Assembly (NCBI GenBank): GCA_951213105.1
Contig: OX578137.1
Coordinates: 58,404,236-58,468,235 of the forward strand
DNA: 64,000 nt
Origin: Amaurobius ferox
Taxonomy: Eukaryota; Arthropoda; Arachnida; Araneae; Amaurobiidae
Direction: 5' to 3'
Below the pieces are notes generated by a model. It had not been told where the DNA came from. It ran no database searches and worked only from the letters and a program-made list of their open reading frames with translations. Numbering within the stretch: the first letter of the stretch is position 1; every line of letters starts with the position of its first letter. Positions 11,201 through 44,683 of this stretch are shown here, piece by piece. The position numbers and the translations under genes are program-made.

Positions 11201-13507
11201 ATCACACATTGTTAAAGAACTTATTTAAAAAATGGCGCAGTCTAGTATTAGTTTTCCTGCCTTTGACAGACTTAAATATTAGTTTTTGATCATTATCATT
11301 GCAGCTTTAAAAGGTGATAGAGAATCAGACTTAATTTCGGCAATTGTATCTAATTTCGATAACACGTAAAATTTTCACCCTTCAAATTGAAACTAATAAT
11401 AACAACGACTAATAACTGAATTAGTATATGTTGAAATCAAACTTTATTTGAAGTCTAATACGAAGGAATTTCAATAAAAGCAGTCAAGAAGATCTATCAT
11501 TGTCTCATTCATATCATATAAGGGGTATGTGTAGAAGAATCCAAGGTCCTCAAGTTAGATTTCTCATTACCATGTGTATACTATATTATAATCACATGGA
11601 ACTCACTTCATAACTACTCTTTTATTCGATTCTTGCTAAACTTTTTATTGCAATCATTTTTAGTTCTGGCCAATTCAGACTCAGGAGCAAGATAGTATCT
11701 TGACTGTCAATAAAAATTAAAAATGCTTTTATCGGTCATGGTACAGAGGACTTTGCCTATGCCGAGGTCAAGGCACCAGTAATTTTACCATTAGAGTTTG
11801 TAGATTTCTAACATCTGCCGAATTGTCAGGAACTAAAAACTTCATCAGAGGAAACGGATTTTGTAAAGCCATTAGAACAAATATGCTGCCAGTAAAAAGA
11901 GACTGTAAGGTATGAGTTGTTTTTAGTGTTTTGAAGTATAGTTCATAATCCAAAGCGTCTGTTTAGTTTAGCTTGTTAATGAGCGTTAGGTTACATTATG
12001 TGGATGAACGATAAAATCCAAGACTCTTTCTAAATGCCATTAGAATTACAGAAGATGAAGGTTCTCCTTCTCTGTAATTTAATCATCGGGAACAGTAAAG
12101 TTAGTTGTGTTTTAAGTATTGCTTACGCATGTTTATAATAATTATCTGGAACTATTTTAAGTATTTTCTATAGAAATAGGTGGATCGATATCTGTTTGGG
12201 GATTTGGATCCATATAAGTTAGGAGTGGATATACAAACTTCAGTAATTTGTCCAAGAACATAATTATATACCCTTTCAATTCTATCTGTGATATATTTGG
12301 AAGTTGTCATAGAAAATATCGCCCATATCATGTAACTGGTTTTCTAAAACTTCTCCAGATCATAACAATCAATCGTTTGAGAATACAAAGTCAAAAATGT
12401 AATGAAATAATATTTTTCTTCCAACAAAAATATGGTTGAATAATATTTATAAAGTTATTTTTCGACGACGTCTTTAGTACTTTATATTACGCTCCATTAT
12501 TGCCAAATATCAGAGTTCCAATTAGTTTTCTCTCAACTGTTTCATTACGAAATCGTCTGGAAAATCATTTAGAACAAAATGAATCACAGCAAGGAATTCA
12601 TTTGACGTACATAGAACAAAACCCATAAAATTGTATTTTTATCTGCTGCCGGAAACTGTAAGAAACTAAAGAAATGTTCAATATAGTTTCCTATAAAGCG
12701 TTATTGTTACGCTATAAAGTTAGTCTGGTGAAAACTATGAAAACGGTTTTATTTTGTCTTAAAGATTGCAGAATATATTTTATTGTAGAAATTTTATGCC
12801 ATAAGTTACATTATGCTTATGGAATATTTTAAATCAATTTATAAAAGAATAGTATCAGTCTTGTCAAAAGTAATTTCTCAAAAATTAATAAAACCAAATC
12901 AAAACAATAGTGAAAGGAACTGAGTAGGCGGTTGAGTAGTCCGAAACTAAATCGCTATGTAAAATAACATGAATTATGTCTGGCAAACATACATCTCCTT
13001 TATTTTTAGGACTTGATAGATAGTCTTCTATCTGATTGTTATTTGTGTCAGACTTTTACTATAAATTCTACACATTGGCTAATAATCGATGCACAAATTT
13101 AAACCATTAATATATCCAATTAAAGATCGTAGCATGTAGATTTATTTTCAAATTCGGCCTCAGAATGCCTTTTGTGAAATTTTCAATATTTTTCCTTTAT
13201 CAAAGAATTCTAAGATGGAAATCGTATAACGTTTTTTCTCTGTTAAGTTTCATTTTCAATCTTTCGTTGAATGAAAGTAATTTTTTTATAAATAATATTT
13301 TAAAACGTTTTATTTTCACTGCCTACACTGTATAATATACAGAGTATTGCGCCTGGTTATAAAATTCGAATTTTAGTCCTTAATAGGCATTTGCCCATAT
13401 TTTTCAGAAACTTGAAATTGTGTTGAACATTTTTATCAGTGATATTTGTCTTTCTGTGCATGCTGGGATGATATTTTCAAGTATCGTTTAAACACATAAC
13501 AAAATAA
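11201..13507. other. AT-rich sequence, nothing recognised
   Basis: Short frames at 11768-11953 (minus) and 12248-12439 (plus) have no recognisable motif. No tandem or inverted repeat stands out. Confidence 0.5.
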
Positions 13508-27435: not shown

Positions 27436-27597
27436 GTTCGATTCCCGCCACTGCCAAAACCGCTGCCGTGTTCACGCGGAGTACGATCACGTTAAACATG
27501 TTGGACCGTAAGTCCTTCCGAGAGGTTGGTGGTAGGAGAAGGAGGGTACGGTCCCTGAAGATGCCTCCCCCACTGGGTTCCGGTCCAAATTGGGATG
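27436..27597 (+). mobile_element. tRNA-derived SINE, 5-prime truncated
   Basis: Starts in box B (GTTCGATTCCCGCC) and continues with the body shared by all copies (CGCGGAGTACGATCACGTTA, then CTCCCCCACTGGGTTCCGGT). Box A is missing. Confidence 0.75.
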
Positions 27598-27731
27598 TTT
27601 TAATTATGGATATTTGAATTTATAGATATTTTAAATGGATATTTTAATTTTATGGATATTTTAAATGATGGAACGATTGAACGAGGATGATGGAATTAAG
27701 AGCTTAGCTTATGGTCATTATAAAATTTAAA

Positions 27732-28472
27732 TTAGCGCGCGAGAATTGCACTCGGTAGGCCCGGGTTCGATTCCCGCCATTGACGCGGAGTACGATCACG
27801 TTAAACATATGGGTCCGTAAGTCCTTCCGAGAGGTTGGTGGTAGGGGAAGCAGGGTACGGTCCCTGTGGATGCCTCCCCCACTGGGTTCCGGTCTAAATT
27901 GGGTGAATAAAAAGAAAGTTATGGAGATTGTCGCGGAGGGCGCGGTAGCCCAGTGGTTAGCGCGCGGGAATTTCACTCGGTAGGCCCGGGTTCGATTCCC
28001 GCCACTGCCAAAACTGCTGCCGTGTTCACGCGGAGTACGATCCCGTTAAACATGTGGGTCCGTAAGTCCTTAAGAGAGGTTGGTGGTAGGGGAAAGAGGG
28101 TAGGGTCACTGTGGATGCCTCCCCCACTGGGTTCCAGTCTAAATTGGCCGAATAAAAATAATGTTATAGAAATTGTCGCGGATGGTGCGGTAGCCCAGTG
28201 GTTAGCGAGCGGGAATTTCACTCGGTAGGCCCGCGTTCGATTCCCGCCACTGCCAAAACTGCAGCCGTGTTCACGCGGAGCACAATCACGTTAAACATGT
28301 GGGACCGTAAGTCCTTCCGAGAGGTTTGTGGTAGGGGAAGGAGGGTACGGTCCCTGTGGATGCTTCCCCCACTGGGTTCCGGTCTAAATTGGGTGGCACT
28401 TCCTGGCCTTCCAAGCAGTTACCTTACCCCTTTCTGGTAGGTCGGACGGTCTGGGTCTCAACAACAACAACA
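27732..28472 (+). mobile_element. Head-to-tail trimer of a tRNA-derived SINE
   Basis: Three monomers start near 27732 (damaged head), 27939 and 28184; the last two are exactly 245 bp apart. Intact heads carry an A box (TAGCCCAGTGG) and a B box (GGTTCGATTCC at 27989-27999), the RNA polymerase III promoter of tRNA genes. The first two monomers end in an AATAAAAA linker and run into the next head. Only the last has the full 3-prime part ending GGTCTGGGTCTC and an (AAC)n tail. SINEs encode no protein and depend on LINE machinery. Confidence 0.8.
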
Positions 28473-28957
28473 ACACCAAACCAAGCATTTTTCATCATAG
28501 CTCATAGGGTCGGAAATGAAACGTAAAGACGCCAGCGGGCGCTTAATGATGAAACTGATGAAAGGAGGTGTGAAAACACAAGAATGACTTAGAAATTATA
28601 AAATTACATTTAATAAACAATAATTATAGTAATGGCTCAAAAGAGTGAAAGCCAACCTGAATGCACGCCTCACAGCGGCGATGGAGGGATTGGCGAATTC
28701 TCTCAAACGTACCAGACATGTCCCTTATTTTGGCAGTAGCGGCTGAAATTCTGAAGACGAGTTACTCTTTAGATTCAAGAGGAGTGTTATAGATGAGACT
28801 CTTGAGATAGCCACAGAGAAAGAAGTCAATACACAACAGATCGGACTATCGTGGAGGCCAAGCTATGGGACCTCCTCGTCCAATCTATCGGCCCTTTAAC
28901 GCCTTTACGTTTCATTTCGGACCAGTAAACTGTGACGAAAAATGCTTGGTTTGGTGT
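28473..28957 (-). mobile_element. Deleted DDE transposon (mariner-like) with terminal inverted repeats
   Basis: The ends are inverted repeats (ACACCAAACCAAGCATTTTTC against its complement at 28937-28957). A second inverted block (GAAATGAAACGTAAAG) lies inside them. On the minus strand, about 28880-28790 encodes a scrambled version of the transposase C-terminal region around the last catalytic Asp; pieces of the IGRGGP..WPPRSPDL..DFFLWG consensus are readable across two frames. At 485 bp it cannot be autonomous. The left TIR abuts the SINE tail, so no clean TA duplication is visible. Confidence 0.65.
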
Positions 28958-34418: not shown

Positions 34419-37400
34419 TCACTCCCGTAGTATTTCCTTATACACGATATTTTGTGTTTTCCCATCTGGTGCAAGTATAAATAGATTCCTATTATCCCCA
34501 ACTCTTGAGCATCCAACATAAAGTTGTCCATGGGAAAAGCAAGGCCTTTGTAGGTTGAGTTCAACGACTTTCAAACTCTGTCCCTGAGATTTGCTTATAC
34601 TCATTGCAAAACTGAGCCGAACTGGAAACTGTAGGCGTTTAAACTCAAAAGGGAGGTTTGGAGGTATGATAGGGATGCATGGTAGAAAAACGTGACTTCC
34701 AGCAGAATGACCTGTTATGATCGTTGCCTCAAGGACATTAGGCATCATTTTCTTAACAATCAATCTTGTTCCATTACACAGTGCCGGTGGATCTAGATTT
34801 CTTAAAAGCATAATGTGTGCTCCAATCTTTAGTTCTAATTTATGTGAGGGCACACCAGAAATTTCCAGTGAATTAAAAAATTCTGGTGAGTACTCGACGG
34901 CCTGATTTTTATCTATTACAGAATCTGCAGACTTATATGTGTGAACAGAAGCAGGAAGTTTCATGAGTAGTTGTCTGTTAATAACATTAACCGCTTCATT
35001 CGTGGGAGCAAGAATAGCTCTTTCACACAGCCACTTAGGGTCTAGGAAGTGACGCTCAATGTTGGGAAATACACTTTATTTTAGTTCTACTGGCGTTGTA
35101 ACAATATTTCCAATAAATCCCATCTCTATTAATCCCTTGTCATCAGCGGTTATGTCCCCGTTTTCAAGTCGCAGTAGGTTCTCTGCAAATTCTTGAGCAG
35201 CGGCATGACCTGTCATATGAACTCTCATGTTCGTTTCTAACCTGAGTCTTTGAACATTTGTCCAAAGGCAAGATGTTTTAATTGATGCATCCGCTTTCGT
35301 ACCACGTTGAATTACTGGAAGAGTCTGCCTGAAATCCTCAGATAAAACCAACGTTACTCCTCCTATACGTCTTGTGTTATGAAAAAGGTCTTGCATGGTA
35401 ACGTCAAGAGCTTCCAGAGCAGCCTTGTTTGACATTGTACACTTATCCCAGACAATAAGCTTGCATCTTCTGAGAAGTGCAGCCTTATTCGAACTTCTTG
35501 AAATGTTGCAAGTGGGATGTGTTCAACACTTGCTAGATTTAGAGGTAATTTAATCACTGAATGAGCTGTTCTTCCTCCAGTCAAAAGAGTAGCAGCAATT
35601 CCCGAAGAAGCTACAGCAAGGGCAACCATACCTCTCTGTCTCACTTTTGCTAAAAGAAGATTGATCAGATAAGTTTTCCCTGTTCCACCGGGTGCGTCTA
35701 AGAAGAATATTCCACCCACTCTATCAAAAACAGCAGATGTAATTAACTCAAAGGCTTGTCTCTGATCCTCAACCAGATTTGGCTCATTTGATTGGACATA
35801 CGTTGTTAGTTCATCTATATTGTAGCTTGTCTCCCTCATTATTTCGTAGTTGAGACTGATAGAGTCGCCCCTTTGTGGCTCAGGAAGTCCGAATGCTTTT
35901 AAAATCTAACCACCTAAAGCCTTGATCTTATCTTCGAGAAAGATCAATGCTTGATTGAAGATGACATCGTCATACACTAACTCAAAGTTATTGGTCCTAA
36001 CTCTTGCCTGGTGCAAAATGTCTTTAGACATATTTTCTTTCTGTAAATTCTACAGCTCCAGAGGATTTGACATGGAACATGCCTGCAGCTAAAGTACAAA
36101 TAGATTACGGAGCATTCCCGCTGATCGAGTGGCAGTTGCTTCTTCCAGTGCATTTTCCCATTGTGAGTCATCTTCGAGAAGGCCTCTTAGCTGGCAGGCT
36201 TGCTTGAAAGTATCACATACTGTTTCGCCGACAGTTTTTAAAAAGCTGAAGGATGTAGGACCTTGTACTTTGTGAAGCAACAGTCGAAGATGAAAGCATT
36301 CAGAGTTAGTTGGATGAACTGTGTAGACACGACCGAGTGCATCGCTTGATATAATACCCGAATGTTCCGGTACAATTTGACCAGACTTACGACGGAGCCA
36401 TTTTTTTCTGCTTGCATTCCACGTGTAGTACTTTGGCAACTGATGGTACAGCAGAGTGTGAGCGAACTCGTCACTTTGGCACAGGGAGAAGAAGGCAGTA
36501 AATGTTGTATCTGGCGGGGACTGTGCTCGGGCTCGTGCATTCTCACTTGCGAAGTAAACTCTCTTCCCATTCTCAAGATGAATGCTCAAATGAGTGACTG
36601 TGGGATATCTCTCGTGAATGGGAAAGCCCATGATCCTCCAAATGGCCTTATTGCTGCTAATGTAACGCCCAATTTCATACTACTGCACCTCATCACGCAC
36701 ACTTTCACCACTCGCCACTTGAAATGCTGCCATGTCAGACCCCTTATTAACATATTTGCACACATATTTGATAGACTGAACCGAGCTACAGTATTCCACA
36801 TTAATGTGAGCATTGAATGCCTTCGATAATAATGGACAATACGGAACAACCCACCTATTGTCAACCATGACATCAGAACCTCGTACTTTCTTGACTACCG
36901 TAAATCCCCCGTCTTTTGGATCTCTGCGACGATAGAGCGGATATCCGTCACGGTCTGTCCGCGTATTAATCAAATTTTTTCATGGGTACTTCTTCGTACA
37001 TATCGAGTCTTTCATGCAAGGAGAGCGTGAATTAATGTTCCCGCATGGGCCATGAATCATATGTTTTGTGACTATGCCATACAAAAGTGGGTCAATTTCC
37101 GGATTCGGTATTTCCGCACTGATGAATTCGTCTACTCTGTGAACATGGATTCTGTCATGAAGTCAGAGCAAGATATGTGCATGTGGAAGACCCCGCTTCT
37201 GCCACTCCACCGTGTACATGAAACAGGCAACGTCACCAAGTATCTTTCCTTTATTGAGGAGGTTGGTCAGAGACTTCAATTTCTGGCGGAAGACTCTGGC
37301 AAGCAAGTCGTGTCGATCCTGACCTTTCTGTCTGGGCATTAATTCGTTTGTTACTTCACCCCACTGAGGATTACACGTAAACGTTATGAATAAGTCAGGC

Positions 37401-39034
37401 CTACCAAAATTTCGGACATACGTAATGGCGTCTTGAGTTCTTTCGTGCATGTAGCGAGGACCACCTGTGAAGCTAGAAGGTAAAATTATAAGTTGGCCTA
37501 TGTCACGAACATTACCATCACTGTTGACAGCATCCCTCAGATGAACATAATCTTCTACCCGTAGTTTCCTCTGGTTCAAGCGTATGAACCTCAGACGTTC
37601 TGATTCAATCTTTACATATACGTCTACGGCGAACTGGTGAAATAGTGTCTTACACCTTAAAATGATATTAAAGCTTGATGCTCGGTACATCATCCTGAAT
37701 GCATAAAAGTCCATTGCCGAAATCTTCTTTGAAGTAGCAATGCCTGTTGTGGGATTCGTTTCTCTCATTTCAAAGTGGTACCCATCTTCACCTTGCCAAA
37801 ATATTAGCGGATACTGAAGTGCATCATAGGATCTATGCGTTTCTGCAATCTTTTGAATCTCATCACTCCTCAAATGAAGTTTGATGTCTCTGCGGCCGTG
37901 TTCATCACCAGCAAGAATAACCGCCACTTCTGATGTTGTCGGTGCGTTAAATCTTCTTTCATGTTCACCCGAAGGTGTTTTATCTGCCCGAATAAGAACC
38001 TTAAATTCGGGAGTCATTTTCTCCATAGCACACTTAAAACTACTTACTGTTGTGCTCATGAAGCATGTCCTGTAACTCTGCTACTATATTTGGTTTGGCC
38101 TGCATCACATTCCTGCAACGTTGCCTGAAGAAATTTTGGCTCGTCATTTGTTTGGGGTTGCAGACTCCCTATTCTGTGGTACACTTGACCCTGCACTTTA
38201 AATGTAGGCATATATCCATCTTCTTTAATCAGCTGTGTGCAACCAAATGACGTCATTTGAAAACATGAATTATATCGTCTTATGTTTTTTTGGAAATGCC
38301 TTGCATCAGGCGAGTTGGACGTAAGCAATGTTGAAAGAGGTTCCGCAGGATCTCGAAGTAAAGGCAGGCGAATTTTCCCATTGCTGCAACACATACCAGG
38401 TGTGTCCCCTTTCCATTTAAGTGCGTGGCAGAAGTTGCATTCGACTGTCATTCTGCCTACTTTAATCATTTGTTCAGATGCATAATCAATAGTAAAATCA
38501 TAACTGAATGCAGCATTTTCTTTTTCCGACCAAACTTGATATCTAACTGCAGCCCTTCTCTGTGCATCAGCGACCTGTCTTTCTTCCTGCTGTTCCTGGG
38601 TTTCATTTTCCCTAACTGCAGTCATTCTCTCCGAGTTAAGCATCTGTCTTTCTTCCCGTTGTTCCTGGGTTTCATTTCCCCTAACTGCAGTCATTCTCTT
38701 CGCGTTAACCACCTGTCTTTCTTCCCGCTGTTCCTGGGTTTCATTTTCTCTAACTGCAGCTCTTCTCTGTGCATGAGCGACCTGTCTTTCTTCCCGCTGT
38801 TCCTGGGTTTCATTTACCCTAAGTGCAGCTCTTCTCTGTGCATCAGCGACCTGTCTTTCTTCCCGCTGTTCCTGGGTTTTATTTTCTCTAACTGCAGCCC
38901 TTCTCTGTGCATCAGCGAGCCGTCTATTTTGACGCTGTTCCTCACTTTTGGAGGCTTGAGCAGCGGCACTCCTTTCGCGGTTTCTTCTTCGGTTTGTTTT
39001 GCTACTTAAGCAGACTTTTTTTTTTTGGAGGCAT
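34419..39034 (-). pseudogene. Helitron Rep-helicase (RepHel) gene, multiple frameshifts and stops
   Basis: Domains in order: start ATG near 39034 with a Lys run shifted by an A-tract; a 23-residue repeat region (38960-38560); a Cys-containing domain (CNFCHALKWKG, about 38410); the Rep/HUH domain (38059-37163) ending RGLPHAHILL, the HUH motif; the Tyr motif IKYVCKYVNKG (about 36740); a linker (36631-36089); and a PIF1-type superfamily 1B helicase. The helicase shows Walker A GGTGKTY (about 35690), VWDKC at 35455-35440 (family usually WDEC), DFRQTLPVI (about 35310), SKSQGQSL (about 34580) and a C-terminal SHGQLYVGCSR. Known role: nicking and strand transfer by Rep, unwinding by helicase. Breaks include TGA after HILL, TGA after KKYP and shifts near 38056, 36650, 35850, 35400 and 35000. 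Together with the WDKC change it cannot be functional. Confidence 0.88.
38560..38960 (-). repeat. 69-bp (23-residue) tandem repeat in the RepHel N-terminus
   Basis: Six units with exact 69-bp spacing (the TGTTCCTGGG landmark on the plus strand at 38591, 38660, 38729, 38798, 38867 and, diverged, 38936). The encoded unit resembles TQEQREERQVADAQRRAAVR, charged and probably helical. The 69-bp period keeps the frame. Confidence 0.85.
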
Positions 39035-40668
39035 TTTTGTTTTCAATAAAAGCACGAAACAAAGTTATAAACACTCATAATACCAATAGCTGATTGCTAA
39101 AATAAACTCTAAACTGAATAAATTGTTTACAAATTAAACAAAAATCTAAATACAATTCTAGAATATGACCTGTTAATAAACCACACAAACCTTTTAATAT
39201 GACCTGTAAAATCAGAACAATATACAGCCCCCGGTTTATAAATATAAATAAAAAAGAGAAATAGTGTTCTTAGAAGAACAAATTAAACAAAAATCTAAAT
39301 ATAATTCTAGAATAGAAGTCGAAAATAGCCCCTGTTTAAACACAAATGAAATACACTTAATACGTAAAAAAAAAGAAAGAAAACTTTATGTTCTTTAAAG
39401 AACACGAAACGAATGGCTTGTTTTAGTTTAATGACGTTAAAACTAATAATTAAATAAAGCTTTTTCGTTTTTAATTAAAACACGAAACAAAATTATAAAC
39501 ACCCATAATAACAATAGCCCATTGTTAAAATAAACTCTAAACTGAATCAATATGCTTTTGTAAAAAAGATCCTAGCCAAAGCTCTGTAAACTGATACACA
39601 AATAATAAAGTAAACAAAAATAATAGCGCTAAACAATATGTTAAATCAGAACCCCTGTTTAAATAAGAACAATTTTAAAACATAAAACAATATAAATAAA
39701 ATACACTATAAACGTGTAAATACATTTAATACGTAAATGTTATAAAATAAAAAGCATGTTCTTAAAAAAACAATAAATTCAGCTGTAAAGAAGTTTAACA
39801 CAACAGAGAAATATTTGGGTTGAGTTGTAAGAAAAACTCACGTTTTTAAAAAAATAATAAATGCTTTTAAAATGAAGAGTAATTTAATAATAATTTATTC
39901 CAATAAAATGGATGAATAATTTATTCAAATGAAATGGATGGTTTGTTTTAGTTTAATGGCGTTAACACTAATAATTAAATTGAAAAGTAATGTATTTCGA
40001 ATATCGAATATATTCGATGATTTCGCTATTGCGTATTATTCAGAACCGTAACGTCCCCAGCCACCACCTTCCCTCCTTCTGCGGGGAAGAAACGCCGGTG
40101 AAGAAATGCTTTAACGGATACCGAGAAATTGAAATTCGGAAAATCTTAAAATCCCGATCCTGTGGGCAATACGGAATATTTCTTGACCAGATTGGACTTG
40201 TAAGAATGCCAGATATTTGACCTTTCTAAAAATGTAAATTATTAGTCGAAATTCTGAGTACTTTTTACTATGCGAGAATTTAAAAACCAAAAATCGTTTC
40301 TTTTTAGTCTAAAGTGACTTTTGTTTTAAAATCATAAAAAAATATTAAAATTTGTCCCTGAGATTTGAAATTGATATATTTTTACTCAAAATTCTCTGCT
40401 CTTTTCGATGGTGTGATTTGTTTTTTTCTACAATGTCTGGATCGTGGAGAAAAAAAGGCAAAAAAGACAAAAAACGGTCGAAAACGCATAAAACATTAAA
40501 TAACAAAAACAATAATTAAAATTTTGAAAATCGGTATTCACGTGTCCCCTTCCCACCCCCCGGGTCTCCGATTGCCAAATTTCGTAGCTCTCCGAAGCGC
40601 GGTCGCTGAACGTATAGCGTATAAGACAGACAGACACACACACAGACATTGCCTTTTATTATTTAAGA
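39035..40668 (-). other. Helitron 5-prime leader
   Basis: Between the 5-prime terminus and the RepHel ATG. It holds two diverged direct repeats (39038-39124 and 39460-39555, sharing AAACTCTAAACTGAAT) and short frames with no motif. Promoter elements cannot be assigned. Confidence 0.5.
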
Positions 40669-40864: not shown

Positions 40865-43020
40865 TTGATAGAAAATGCCATTATTTTCAATTTAAGTTGG
40901 GAATTGTTTACATCGATATTACATTACCAACATTGTGCCATGGATAGTTTTGAATATAATAATTACCCCAGTAAAAATTATAATTTCAATAAATGTAAGA
41001 ATAAGAATTGCAAAACCTGCCCATCTGCTTCTAAAACTCAAATTATTAACCAAAGATAGCCATATGCTTTTCTGTAAAAATTTTAATTGCATCTATCGAT
41101 TATCTTATAACATTTGCAGTCTATCATATATTGGACAAACAAGTAATCCCATTCATCTGCGTATGAATGTCCACAGAGATCACGTCAAAAAATATATTCT
41201 CAATAATAATTTTCTTCCTACTTCCAATAAAATAGAATATAAACACTTTGTTAAACACGGTTTTGAAGATATCACTATACATATTTTGGATATAAAAACA
41301 AATACAGCAGATAGGATTTATTTTGAAAACTACTATCTTTAATCAAATTGTACTCTTTTTTCATATGGAATAAATCAAATATATCTAAATGGTAATATTG
41401 TAAAAAATAATTTTGTAGATAATAAATATCCTATTTTTAATCACTTTTTTTGAAACCCCTTTTAAATAATATTAAATCAGTCAAATTCATAAGATTTAAA
41501 CGTGGTAAAGGAAACACCTTACAACATGATTTTAAAGCTGAGATAATTTGTTTACATAATCAATTTAATAACACTTTTCAATGGAAATTAATAAAATCCT
41601 GGGTTTTTGCGGTAAAGAAAAAACATTTAAATAACGTTTATGCAATTTTCTTAAAATTAAATCTTTCTAATGAACATTTTAATCATATTTTCTGTGATTT
41701 GCTTATTACAAGATCAAAGTATTTAAATTTAAAACTTAATCAATTTTTATCATAATAATATGACTGTTAATTCTTATTGTGTAATCTCTTTCAAGCATCC
41801 TATTTATAATTCTATAAATTTTGGTTATCTATTTAACAAGTTCAAACATATAATACCTATTGGAGATTTGAATGTACCAAAGACTTTTGGATACAACAAG
41901 CCTATTGATAGATCTATATTTAATTATAAGGAAATTTCACAATCTCTCTCTATAGATCATGTTTCTAAGTCACAGAAAGAAAATTTACATTCCATTAATT
42001 TCCAATTTACATTCCATTAATAGCACCAAAATTGAAAATTATAAATATGCGTAGTGATTTAAATATTAAATATAAATTTCTTAAATTTCCATATATAGTA
42101 CTTATTCCTAAATTTCATAAAAATCCTATTAAATTTAGAACAGTAACTAGTGGTCATAATACTTACTCTACTACTGCGAGTAAATTACTACAAAATTATT
42201 TTAAATCTAATAAATGATAGTCTACGTTAGACTAGCAATAATTACCTTATTCTATATAATAGTAAAGAATTAAAGAATAAATTAACATCACTTAGAAAAC
42301 TAAAAGGATTTCAAACTTTTGATTTTAAAAATCTTTTAAATAATAAAGATCTCAGACCTGTATGATGTAATTTTAGCTCTATATAATGCTTATATTACTA
42401 ACCTATCAACTCAAACCAATTTTATAAATTTTCCTAAACTTCTTCACTTTGTTATTTTCAATAATTATATTTTTCAAGGAAATAAATTATACTTACAAGT
42501 CTCAGGAGTACCACAGGGTGGCTGCAGTAGCAGTATGTTGGCAAATTTATACCTTATCATTATGAACAGTATTTTACTTCAATAGATTATACATTATACA
42601 GATATGTTAATGATCTGATTTGCTTAGTATATACTGAAAATCATGTCATAGATATAGATGTCTATCCAGATAATTTGGAATTAATTCCTAATGAAGCTAC
42701 TATTAGTAATAATATTAATTTTTTGGATTTATTATTGATCTTATTATTGAACCTTCTAATAGAATTGTTATTAATTTATATGCTAAAAAAGACTATTTTA
42801 ATTTCAACATTAATAAAATCTTACCATTTAATTCCTGCATCTCGATTCTATTGTTTAGAAATATTATACTTAATCAGCTTTTTAGAATTTATAGATTATC
42901 TGATAAAAAATTTAATGATATACATATAAATAATCTAAAAATTACCAGCAATTTATATAAATATCCTTCTTATTTAGTAAATGGTATAGTTAAAAAATTT
43001 AGATTAGCTGGATTTTCATG
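40865..43020 (+). pseudogene. Naiad-like PLE polyprotein: zinc motif, N-terminal GIY-YIG, reverse transcriptase (frameshifted)
   Basis: Order on the plus strand: NKCKNKNCKTCP (CX4CX2C, about 40998-41030); after a frameshift near 41055, GIY-YIG with CIYRL, LSYIGQTS, LRMNVHR and a later FENYY (41080-41342); RT N-terminal region with RSIFNYKEIS (about 41910-41945); PKFHKNP (about 42110), corresponding to PLE PKIHK; FQTFDF (RT motif A start, about 42312); SGVPQGG (42502-42522); and YRYVND (about 42595-42615), where YVDD is expected. Several frameshifts and stops interrupt it. In classical PLEs the nuclease is C-terminal, so this order is diagnostic. The changed YVND site argues against activity. 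Confidence 0.75.
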
Positions 43021-43734: not shown

Positions 43735-43860
43735 ATACAAATGTATAAAGCTGATACAAAAAGAAATATAAAAAAGAGATGGGGGTTGTACTTGCAGGTA
43801 ATGTATGAAACGGCCAAACGGTATTGCGACCCCTTGTTCCCGGTTACAACATGCTTTTAC
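43735..43860. other. Flank between PLE and 5S-SINE
   Basis: No gene. GC content rises toward the SINE. Confidence 0.4.
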
Positions 43861-43874
43861 ACCAAGGAAACACT

Positions 43875-44259
43875 AGGCCAACGGTCGTACCGTGCTGAAA
43901 ACACCGGTTCTCGTTAGATCACCGAAGTCAAGCAGCATCGGGCGAGGTTAGTACTTGGTGGGTGACCACCTCGGAACACCGCGTGCTGTTGGCCATCTCG
44001 GGTGCGGTATCCCCGTGGTTTGCGCACTAGATTTGCACGCTACCACAAATGCCGCCGTGTTCATGCGGAGTACGATCACGTTAAACATGTGGGTCCGTAA
44101 GTCCTTCCGAGAGGTTGGTGGTAGGGGAAGGAGGGTACGGTCCCTGTGGATGCCTCCCCCACTGGGTTCCGGTCTAAATTGGGTGGCACTTCCCGGCCGT
44201 CCATACAGTTACCTTACACCTTTCTGGTAGGTCGGACGGTCTGGGTCTCAACAACAACA
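43875..44259 (+). mobile_element. Chimeric SINE: 5S rRNA head, tRNA-SINE body, (AAC)n tail, with target duplication
   Basis: A 117-base 5S rRNA-like head (43877-43993) runs without a terminator into a remnant of the tRNA-SINE head (GGTGCGGTATCCCCGTGGTT, about 44003-44022) and then the same body and (AAC)n tail as the SINE at 28184-28472. The complete unit is flanked by ACCAAGGAAACACT at 43861-43874 and 44260-44273, a 13-14 bp target-site duplication. That shows the 5S and SINE parts were inserted together as one retrotransposed RNA copy. The B-box region of the tRNA head is deleted, so transcription probably relied on the 5S promoter. Comparable 5S-headed SINEs (SINE3, AmnSINE1) are known in vertebrates. 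Confidence 0.82.
43877..43993 (+). rRNA. 5S rRNA-derived sequence (SINE head)
   Basis: GCCAACGGTC at the start pairs with the terminal GCTGTTGGC. The internal control region is intact (AAGCAGCATCGGGCGAGGTT, AGTACTTGGTGGGTGACC). At 117 bases it is close to the usual 119-121. It is embedded in a retrotransposed unit and lacks a terminating T-run, so it should not be counted as an ordinary 5S gene, although it may be transcribed. Confidence 0.8.
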
Positions 44260-44273
44260 ACCAAGGAAACACT

Positions 44274-44683
44274 CCCGGAACCGATACCTTCCCGAAGCAA
44301 CCCTCCGTCCGCCATCAAAACAGGAATCTCAAAAAGCCAGAATCAAAAATCAAAACCAGAATCCCCAGATGGAGATTCAGAATAAATTCTCTTTTCAAAT
44401 ACGATGAATAAGTAAAAGGGATATGGAACGAAAACGCCTATCGACCACTTTCTTACAATCACATATTGATATGACCCTTAACTATTTTTGTAAAATGCGT
44501 ATCATTCGCAACTTTTCTCGTATATACCACTTTATACTATCAGATCGTTGACATTTGTATGTTGTTCTTTTTGTTTTTGTAAAATGCATTATAATACTGC
44601 CTTAGAAAACGTGTTGGATATTGTTGTTTTATGGCTTCACTGATTAAATTCCTTTCGCATTTTATACGTTTGCAGTTTATACG
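44274..44683. other. Unassigned sequence after the 5S-SINE
   Basis: The first 110 bases are GC-richer and Pro/Lys-codon-like; the rest is AT-rich. No motif. Confidence 0.4.
44392..44395 (+). terminator. First TTTT downstream of the 5S-SINE
   Basis: No run of four T occurs from the 5S head to this point, so a polymerase III transcript from the 5S promoter would be expected to pass through the SINE and stop here in flanking DNA. Inference from sequence only. Confidence 0.35.

Follow-up and report, generated by a model that had tools for sequence, protein, structure and literature searches.

The window analyzed here, 64,000 nucleotides of the genome of the spider Amaurobius ferox, carries a 5S rRNA-like sequence directly in front of a SINE. 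This raises the question of whether the two are chance neighbors or moved as one unit and, if so, whether the unit belongs to a replicating family and which of its parts would serve as the promoter.

Structure of the window element and its surroundings

We found that positions 43861-44273 correspond to a single retroposed unit, in which a 14-bp duplication encloses a full-length 5S head, a tRNA-SINE remnant that lacks the B box, the body found in local SINEs, and an (AAC)n tail (Table 1). The original prediction, made from the letters of the sequence, had treated the whole interval as the unit; it is indeed bounded by the duplication, while the element proper comprises the 385 bases between the repeats (43875-44259). 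The two copies of the duplication are identical at 14 of 14 positions and occur nowhere else in the window, and 51 of 20,000 random flank pairs taken from the window at similar spacing share at least 14 bases. The Rfam match to the 5S model RF00001 covers model positions 1-120 of 120 (E 3.7e-21), and the same profile search found no other 5S match in the 64-kb window at E up to 1.

The SINE body is 92-98% identical to that of four nearby SINE copies at 27.4-28.5 kb. Both body and (AAC)n tail are common to the neighbor ending near position 28475, and the 3' part is absent from the other three; within this cluster, the 3' tail is present on the last copy only, and two upstream units terminate in GAATAAAAA. 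The B box reads GTTCGATTC in all four neighbors. The window copy gave no B-box match, in agreement with the predicted deletion, and its A-box stretch fell outside the search pattern used. The prediction of an intact 5S control region stood only in part. The box A stretch of the head is the same as in the host 5S gene, but the differences from that gene include a 1-base deletion at position 81 and changes at 69, 84, and 97, which we take to lie in or near box C.

Table 1. Features of the 5S-headed element and of the sister SINE cluster in the window
Feature	Position	Strand	Evidence
5' target-site duplication ACCAAGGAAACACT	43861..43874	+	Identical to 44260-44273 at all 14 bp; no third occurrence in the window
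Two extra bases (AG) ahead of the 5S start	43875..43876	+	1-3 such bases in 16/19 scored copies
Full-length 5S rRNA-derived head	43877..43994	+	RF00001 1-120, 101.9 bits; 12 differences in 119 columns compared to the host gene
Linker ATCTCG, 5S/tRNA junction	43995..44000	+	Most older copies have ACATTTCG instead; its ACATT corresponds to the host 5S 3' trailer
tRNA-derived remnant: 5' half, A-box stretch changed, then a 27-column gap relative to the tRNA-headed sister that removes the B box	44001..44053	+	
SINE body common to the tRNA-headed sister family	44054..44249	+	92-98% to copies at 27451-28471; nhmmer body match at 44054-44246
(AAC)n tail, continuing into the start of the 3' target duplication	44250..44259	+	
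3' target-site duplication	44260..44273	+	Exact 14-bp match with the 5' copy
Cluster of four tRNA-headed sister SINEs, one 5'-truncated, partly tandem	27436..28477	+	B-box match in each

The insert splits a G+C-richer stretch (window 43798-44385), which has a G+C content of 44-46% as compared to 26% upstream and 31% downstream. This stretch starts after CAG and, with the insert removed, is open for 62 codons up to a TAA; it is possibly an exon or an old exon family. A reading of the insertion site as a terminal coding exon was dropped: the other two frames are also open over most of the stretch, its two pieces had no match in Pfam or PDB, and the related flank of another copy (L002, described below) has, by eye, an in-frame stop.

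Two other mobile elements have left remains in the window. The minus strand at 34419-39042 carries those of a Helitron, with a Rep piece and a Pif1-like helicase piece in several frames and a repeated stretch upstream of the Rep piece, for which 2,035 homologues were found; the best 120 of the 2,035 are spread over many animals. The plus strand at 40896-42929 carries Penelope-like fragments. There, a weak GIY-YIG match (18.7 bits; Pfam cutoff, 22.6) is followed downstream by a piece that is RT-like by eye and had no Pfam match. This order would be the reverse of that usual in Penelope-like elements, and a homologue search with the open reading frame found none.

Copies and target-site duplications across the genome

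The genome containing the window measures 3.56 Gb in 276 contigs. When it was searched for the whole element, 1,823 first-look candidates were obtained, 40 of which were scored. All 40 were full-length and spread over many contigs; one was the window itself, and the others were 97-99% identical. The 17-base 5S/tRNA junction of the window type occurs 11,469 times as an exact match (5,775 and 5,694 by strand), as compared to a single match (0 + 1) of the reversed control. An older junction with a CATTTCGGG linker gave 11,203 exact copies (5,521 + 5,682), a number that undercounts old copies owing to the exact matching; its reversed control gave 0.

The 20 window-like loci that we fetched, the window included, were the best-scoring of the 40, and 19 were scoreable (the start of L014 was unmatched by the script). 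A target duplication of 11-20 bases was present in 19 of 19, and 18 of the duplications were distinct, with L010 and L013 having the same site and flank. Seventeen duplications were exact and at least 14 bases long; L011 had one mismatch, and L015 had only 11 bases together with five extra bases. Thus, movement as one unit, which had been proposed for the window copy, holds for the other 18 scored copies as well. It had further been suggested that counting junctions and distinct duplications would tell a family from a single locus, and both counts speak for a family.

These numbers bear directly on two alternatives. The first is a one-off template switch between 5S rRNA and SINE RNA within a single insertion, with no family behind it. 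Mammalian 5S/LINE-1 chimeras provide a precedent, as they also join 5S RNA and a retroelement in one insertion, and 20 of 27 such insertions carry target duplications of 7-17 bp (PMC13174262); moreover, only one copy lies within the window. The same source presents the chimeras as independent single events with a 5S part that is typically truncated and antisense (PMC13174262). In contrast, we found a full-length 5S head in sense orientation, not at a single locus but at 11,469 exact junctions, with 18 distinct duplications among 19 scored copies, which makes a one-off event extremely unlikely. The second alternative, an assembly artefact, has nothing in its favor beyond the first sight of a single locus. 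With thousands of junctions in near-equal numbers on the two strands, and with matched duplications on many contigs, we regard it as vanishingly improbable.

The 19 scored copies differ from their own consensus at 0-3 of 373 positions, a low divergence that is biased toward the close relatives of the window and describes the youngest layer only. Thus, the layer of window-like copies is young. Their duplications open with AC(A/C) in 17 of the 19 loci (L008 and L015 differ). Because the script extends each match as far as possible, some of this may be overlap with the (AAC)n tail; such starts would equally result if the nicked target paired with the tail. The flank of L002 is related to that of the window (78% over 60 bases) and carries a 5S SINE at the same nick. 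Because the duplication is 17 bases long at L002 as compared to 14 in the window, this insertion looks like an independent strike at the same site.

In the 162,018 bases flanking the fetched loci (L001 and L053 omitted as duplicates), we found six further 5S heads, one of them half of a tandem pair, which amounts to about 1 per 27 kb in a small and biased sample. At L006 and L009, as judged by eye from the flanks, a 5S-headed SINE is inserted into related SINE copies; such nested insertions could be used to order the ages of subfamilies. Four viral patterns and one prokaryote pattern were without a match in collections of viral and prokaryotic contigs, which is what one expects of an animal SINE.

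Two SINE families behind one 5S head

A search for the 5S family yielded 104,121 first-look candidates, a loose count rather than a copy number, of which 47 were scored and 30 loci were fetched. All 30 continue from 5S into one of two tRNA-derived regions, and none is a plain 5S gene (0/30 by eye; L021 is rearranged). We refer to the two types, the first of which includes the window copy, as family A and family B. From 60 loci, a script extracted 58 5S-headed pieces, assigned to family A (46), family B (6), or left unclassified (6: L021, L040, and two each from the overlapping L052 and L053); the family-B copy L032 was missed by the pattern. In 23 older family-A loci, for which the duplication script is weaker, a repeat of 8-15 bases was found in 11 and none in 4, and in the remaining 8 the tail pattern was unfound.

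The B box was present in 0 of 46 classified family-A copies as compared to 6 of 6 family-B copies, and a 27-column gap relative to the tRNA-headed sister covers its position. Only 6 of the 11,203 older-type junctions, the one junction type to which this count applies, have an exact B box 40-70 bases further on. Thus, loss of the tRNA promoter is a trait of family A as a whole, which substantiates this part of the promoter swap put forward in the original prediction. The six junctions that do have a B box are of three kinds. In L063 and L066, a full 5S head adjoins an entire tRNA region; in L061 and L064, the remnant is followed by a second tRNA 3' part; and L062 and L065 miss half or more of the 5S. 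A 15-base duplication was found by script at L063, and flank repeats are visible by eye at L061, L064, and L066. The tRNA part of L066 is identical, over the 75 bases compared, to its counterpart in tRNA-headed copies at L043 and L048, which suggests that RNAs of the 5S-headed and tRNA-headed families may have recombined at this locus.

Family A consists of successive subfamilies. Its box C passes from GGATGGG through GGGTGGG to the GG-TGGG of young copies, found in 6, 18, and 21 of the 46 copies, respectively (one unread). A 22-base pattern with the GGATGGG form gave 339 + 350 exact matches, and the 10 loci fetched from these read as family A. The young and old consensus sequences differ at 12 positions, half of them (6) within the tRNA remnant; the 5S accounts for 3, the linker for 2, and the body for 1. 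The distance from their own consensus is 1.35-7.26% for the 25 old copies and 0-1.62% for the 21 copies of the young set. Within the window, a comparison with one neighbor had given 15 differences in 54 positions for the head and 11 in 209 for the body; we dropped the idea that this contrast marks a long-lived lineage, as the genome data explain it by subfamily change.

The old consensus of family A retains an A-box-like TAGCCCGGTGG; the young consensus has TATCCCCGTGG there. The retained stretch, together with the A-like and B boxes that family B keeps behind the same head, would fit a dual-promoter SINE in which the tRNA part still contributes and 5S and tRNA boxes act jointly. For family A, however, the absence of the B box from 46 of 46 copies and the change of the A-box stretch in the young consensus argue against joint activity, and we consider a dual promoter unlikely. 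Alternatively, the 5S head could be a passenger, with transcription driven by flanking host promoters and copies spreading by read-through, a view to which the altered box C of the young head (a deletion and substitutions as compared to the host gene) lends itself. However, 18 of the 19 scored loci begin within 0-3 bases of the 5S start although their flanks differ; the exception is L015, with 5 extra bases. This pattern is consistent with initiation at the head, and no TTTT was found anywhere inside the window element, 5S/tRNA junction included. Transcription would thus start at the 5S head, presumably by pol III, and we find a passenger role very unlikely.

The tRNA-headed sister is itself abundant, with 27,476 exact matches (13,731 + 13,745; control, 0) to a B-box/body pattern with 28 fixed bases; this pattern and the 5S-junction patterns differ in length, and thus the counts give no ratio. 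Both the 5S-headed and the tRNA-headed family are large. The same body and tail under different promoters, at similar numbers of exact junctions in one genome, amount to a natural promoter-swap experiment. With this pair, one can ask whether an internal promoter of type 1 (5S), lacking its upstream signals, is enough to keep a large SINE family active, and how promoter heads pass between SINEs.

Family B accounts for 7 of the 30 fetched 5S loci (L027, L032, L033, L034, L039, L041, and L049). Here, the tRNA region behind the 5S head is a different one, in which both an A-box-like TGGCCGAACGG and a B box are found; the latter reads GGGTTCGAGTCCC, and some copies have single changes. The body likewise differs from that of family A, and the tail is A-rich. 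By script, 5 of the 7 loci have duplications of 9-17 bases, one of which is a simple repeat. The family-B junction was matched exactly 707 times (377 + 330; control, 0), with some matches evenly spaced on contig C2. The consensus of the 7 family-B copies differs from the host 5S gene at 11 positions, as compared to 10 for the young consensus and 12 for the window copy. The old family-A head has 6 differences from the host gene, and all 6 are also present in the family-B consensus. Because these differences are shared, the 5S head was probably captured once and then moved between SINEs; a common 5S paralogue that served as donor to both families would likewise explain them.

Origin of the 5S head and relation to known elements

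Four copies on four contigs, which are identical over 119 bases (4/4; 105.6 bits) and continue into ACATTATTT and a T-run, were for these reasons taken as host 5S genes. A GTCYGATC-form pattern gave 39 + 63 matches in the genome, some of them evenly spaced, both on small contigs and at large-contig starts. The spacing of this host 5S form is about 7.0 kb on C16 and mostly on C181, 9.4 kb on C135, and alternately about 9.4 and 15 kb on C24 (6-117 kb); further sites lie on C145 and at the start of C22. The long repeat unit may link 5S to other genes.

Several other candidates for host genes were rejected. The first six GTCYGATC-form loci that we fetched (L072-L077) are 5'-truncated 5S copies. 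Loci obtained with two patterns directed at the host gene (10 of 689 and 4 of 7 matches fetched; L052 and L053 overlap) were 5S-headed SINE copies and no genes, and the single match of another such pattern was a chance T-run upstream of a 5S-headed SINE copy. The copies in L072 (about 1469-1640) and L073-L077 match the present host gene at 39-40, 84, and 112. L072 passes via ATTATTTC into a different SINE/LINE-like tail, GGTCTGGGTCTTCAAC, and looks like an independent 5S capture. L073-L077 are the same in sequence and in flanks, at distances of tens of kilobases from one another on C1.

The old SINE junction reads GTTGGC-ACATT-TCGGGCGCGG, in which five bases of the host 5S 3' trailer (ACATT) are followed by the start of the tRNA sequence. 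Because the trailer lies within the fusion, the junction points to a 5S primary transcript with its 3' trailer as the probable donor. From the same arrangement we infer a template jump; RNA ligation of 5S and SINE RNAs would leave the same junction. The SINE heads have the base of fly and human 5S, and not that of the host gene, at positions 84 and 112, which suggests that the capture may be older than the host changes at the two positions. SINE heads may thus serve as fossils of 5S gene evolution, provided that this polarity is right. A base-pair-like double change at 17/61, considered as specific to the SINE, was rejected, as the host gene has the same state.

Together, we consider it highly probable that the window feature is one recent copy of a 5S rRNA-headed SINE family of the SINE3 type that arose as follows. 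A LINE enzyme reverse transcribing the RNA of a tRNA-headed SINE would, on reaching the 5' end of this RNA, have switched to the 3' end of a 5S primary transcript that still had its trailer, and the resulting chimeric 5S/SINE cDNA would have been inserted. A deletion, seen as the 27 columns missing relative to the sister, would then have removed the tRNA B box, leaving the internal 5S control region as the sole complete pol III promoter. The lineage would have been amplified through successive subfamilies, and the same 5S head would also have come to sit on a second, unrelated tRNA-SINE body. Mobility presumably depends on a LINE, and the SINE itself ends in GGTCTGGGTCTC(AAC)n. A LINE fragment beside L038 had 27 homologues in a search that scored only the 7,995 candidates sharing most words; among the 16 with an organism name, 14 are from Araneus ventricosus and one each from Stegodyphus dumicola and Dufourea, a distribution in line with an arachnid host.

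A broader reading, to which we give about an even chance, is that the captured 5S head acts as a promoter cassette that is both portable and self-sufficient. After a single capture from a 5S primary transcript, it would have taken the place of the tRNA promoter in one highly abundant SINE, with subsequent loss of the B box, and would also have been fused to a second, unrelated tRNA-SINE; the B-box-free family would still be moving and would rival its tRNA-headed sister in number. If true, this would contradict the view that a retroposed type 1 promoter lacks the strength to give rise to a large family. Kapitonov and Jurka, as cited in PMC3272025, held that retroposed 5S promoters should be weak, as they depend on upstream signals.

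The architecture agrees with that of SINE3 elements in having a 5S-derived 5' head with an internal control region (full-length RF00001 match, box A stretch as in the host gene, box C altered), in being short, dispersed, and multi-copy (385 bases; 11,469 + 11,203 exact junctions), and in having target duplications of variable length (11-20 bases in 19/19 young loci; by script, 8-15 bases in 11/23 old family-A loci). The original prediction had referred to 5S-headed SINEs of vertebrates. They do occur in fish and mammals, but are not confined to vertebrates, being described also from a beetle and Lepidoptera (PMC3272025, PMC8010984), and 5S-related SINEs are reported from Aspergillus (PMC5063351). 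Among the open-library titles listed, none dealt with a 5S SINE of an arachnid; Repbase and subscription journals were outside this search, and we do not claim absence from print.

HaSE3 of Helicoverpa has been put forward as possibly the first chimera of 5S and a tRNA-SINE known from insects, with template switching as the explanation (PMC3272025). Its lepidopteran relatives among 5S-derived SINEs are PxSE4, PxSE5, LaSE2, and CsSE2 (SINE3), with 4,415 and 1,952 copies given for PxSE4 and PxSE5, respectively (PMC8010984). Like HaSE3, which has its body and tail in common with the tRNA-headed HaSE1 (PMC3272025), the spider element combines a 5S-derived head with a body and tail shared with a tRNA-headed sister in the same genome. 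However, HaSE3 was judged much rarer than HaSE1 (PMC3272025), while exact junctions alone number more than 22,000 here. As compared by description, the spider element also differs from the lepidopteran families in its arachnid host and in the tRNA remnant that persists behind the 5S head, and its (AAC)n tail differs from the tails of PxSE4 and PxSE5, which are (TGA)n or (ATGT)n (PMC8010984). It is distinguished by the matched promoter pair on one body, the family-wide loss of the B box, the occurrence of one head on two SINEs, and the trailer retained at the junction.

AmnSINE1 has the same order of parts, with a 5S-derived promoter, a tRNA-derived region, and then the body and 3' tail, and contains a central Deu domain (PMC3234267). 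The tRNA-derived region behind the 5S head is a remnant in family A and complete in family B, which, with both tRNA boxes retained, is the closer architectural match to AmnSINE1. The likeness to AmnSINE1 and the DeuSINEs is one of the order of parts; the host group is another, and the B box is deleted in family A. Last, Cassandra and Ajax, which are TRIMs with 5S in their LTRs, are likewise described as retroelements with a captured 5S promoter (PMC10886601). In contrast to these, we saw no LTR structure in the spider element, which ends in an (AAC)n tail and has duplications of 11-20 bases as compared to 5 in Ajax (PMC10886601).
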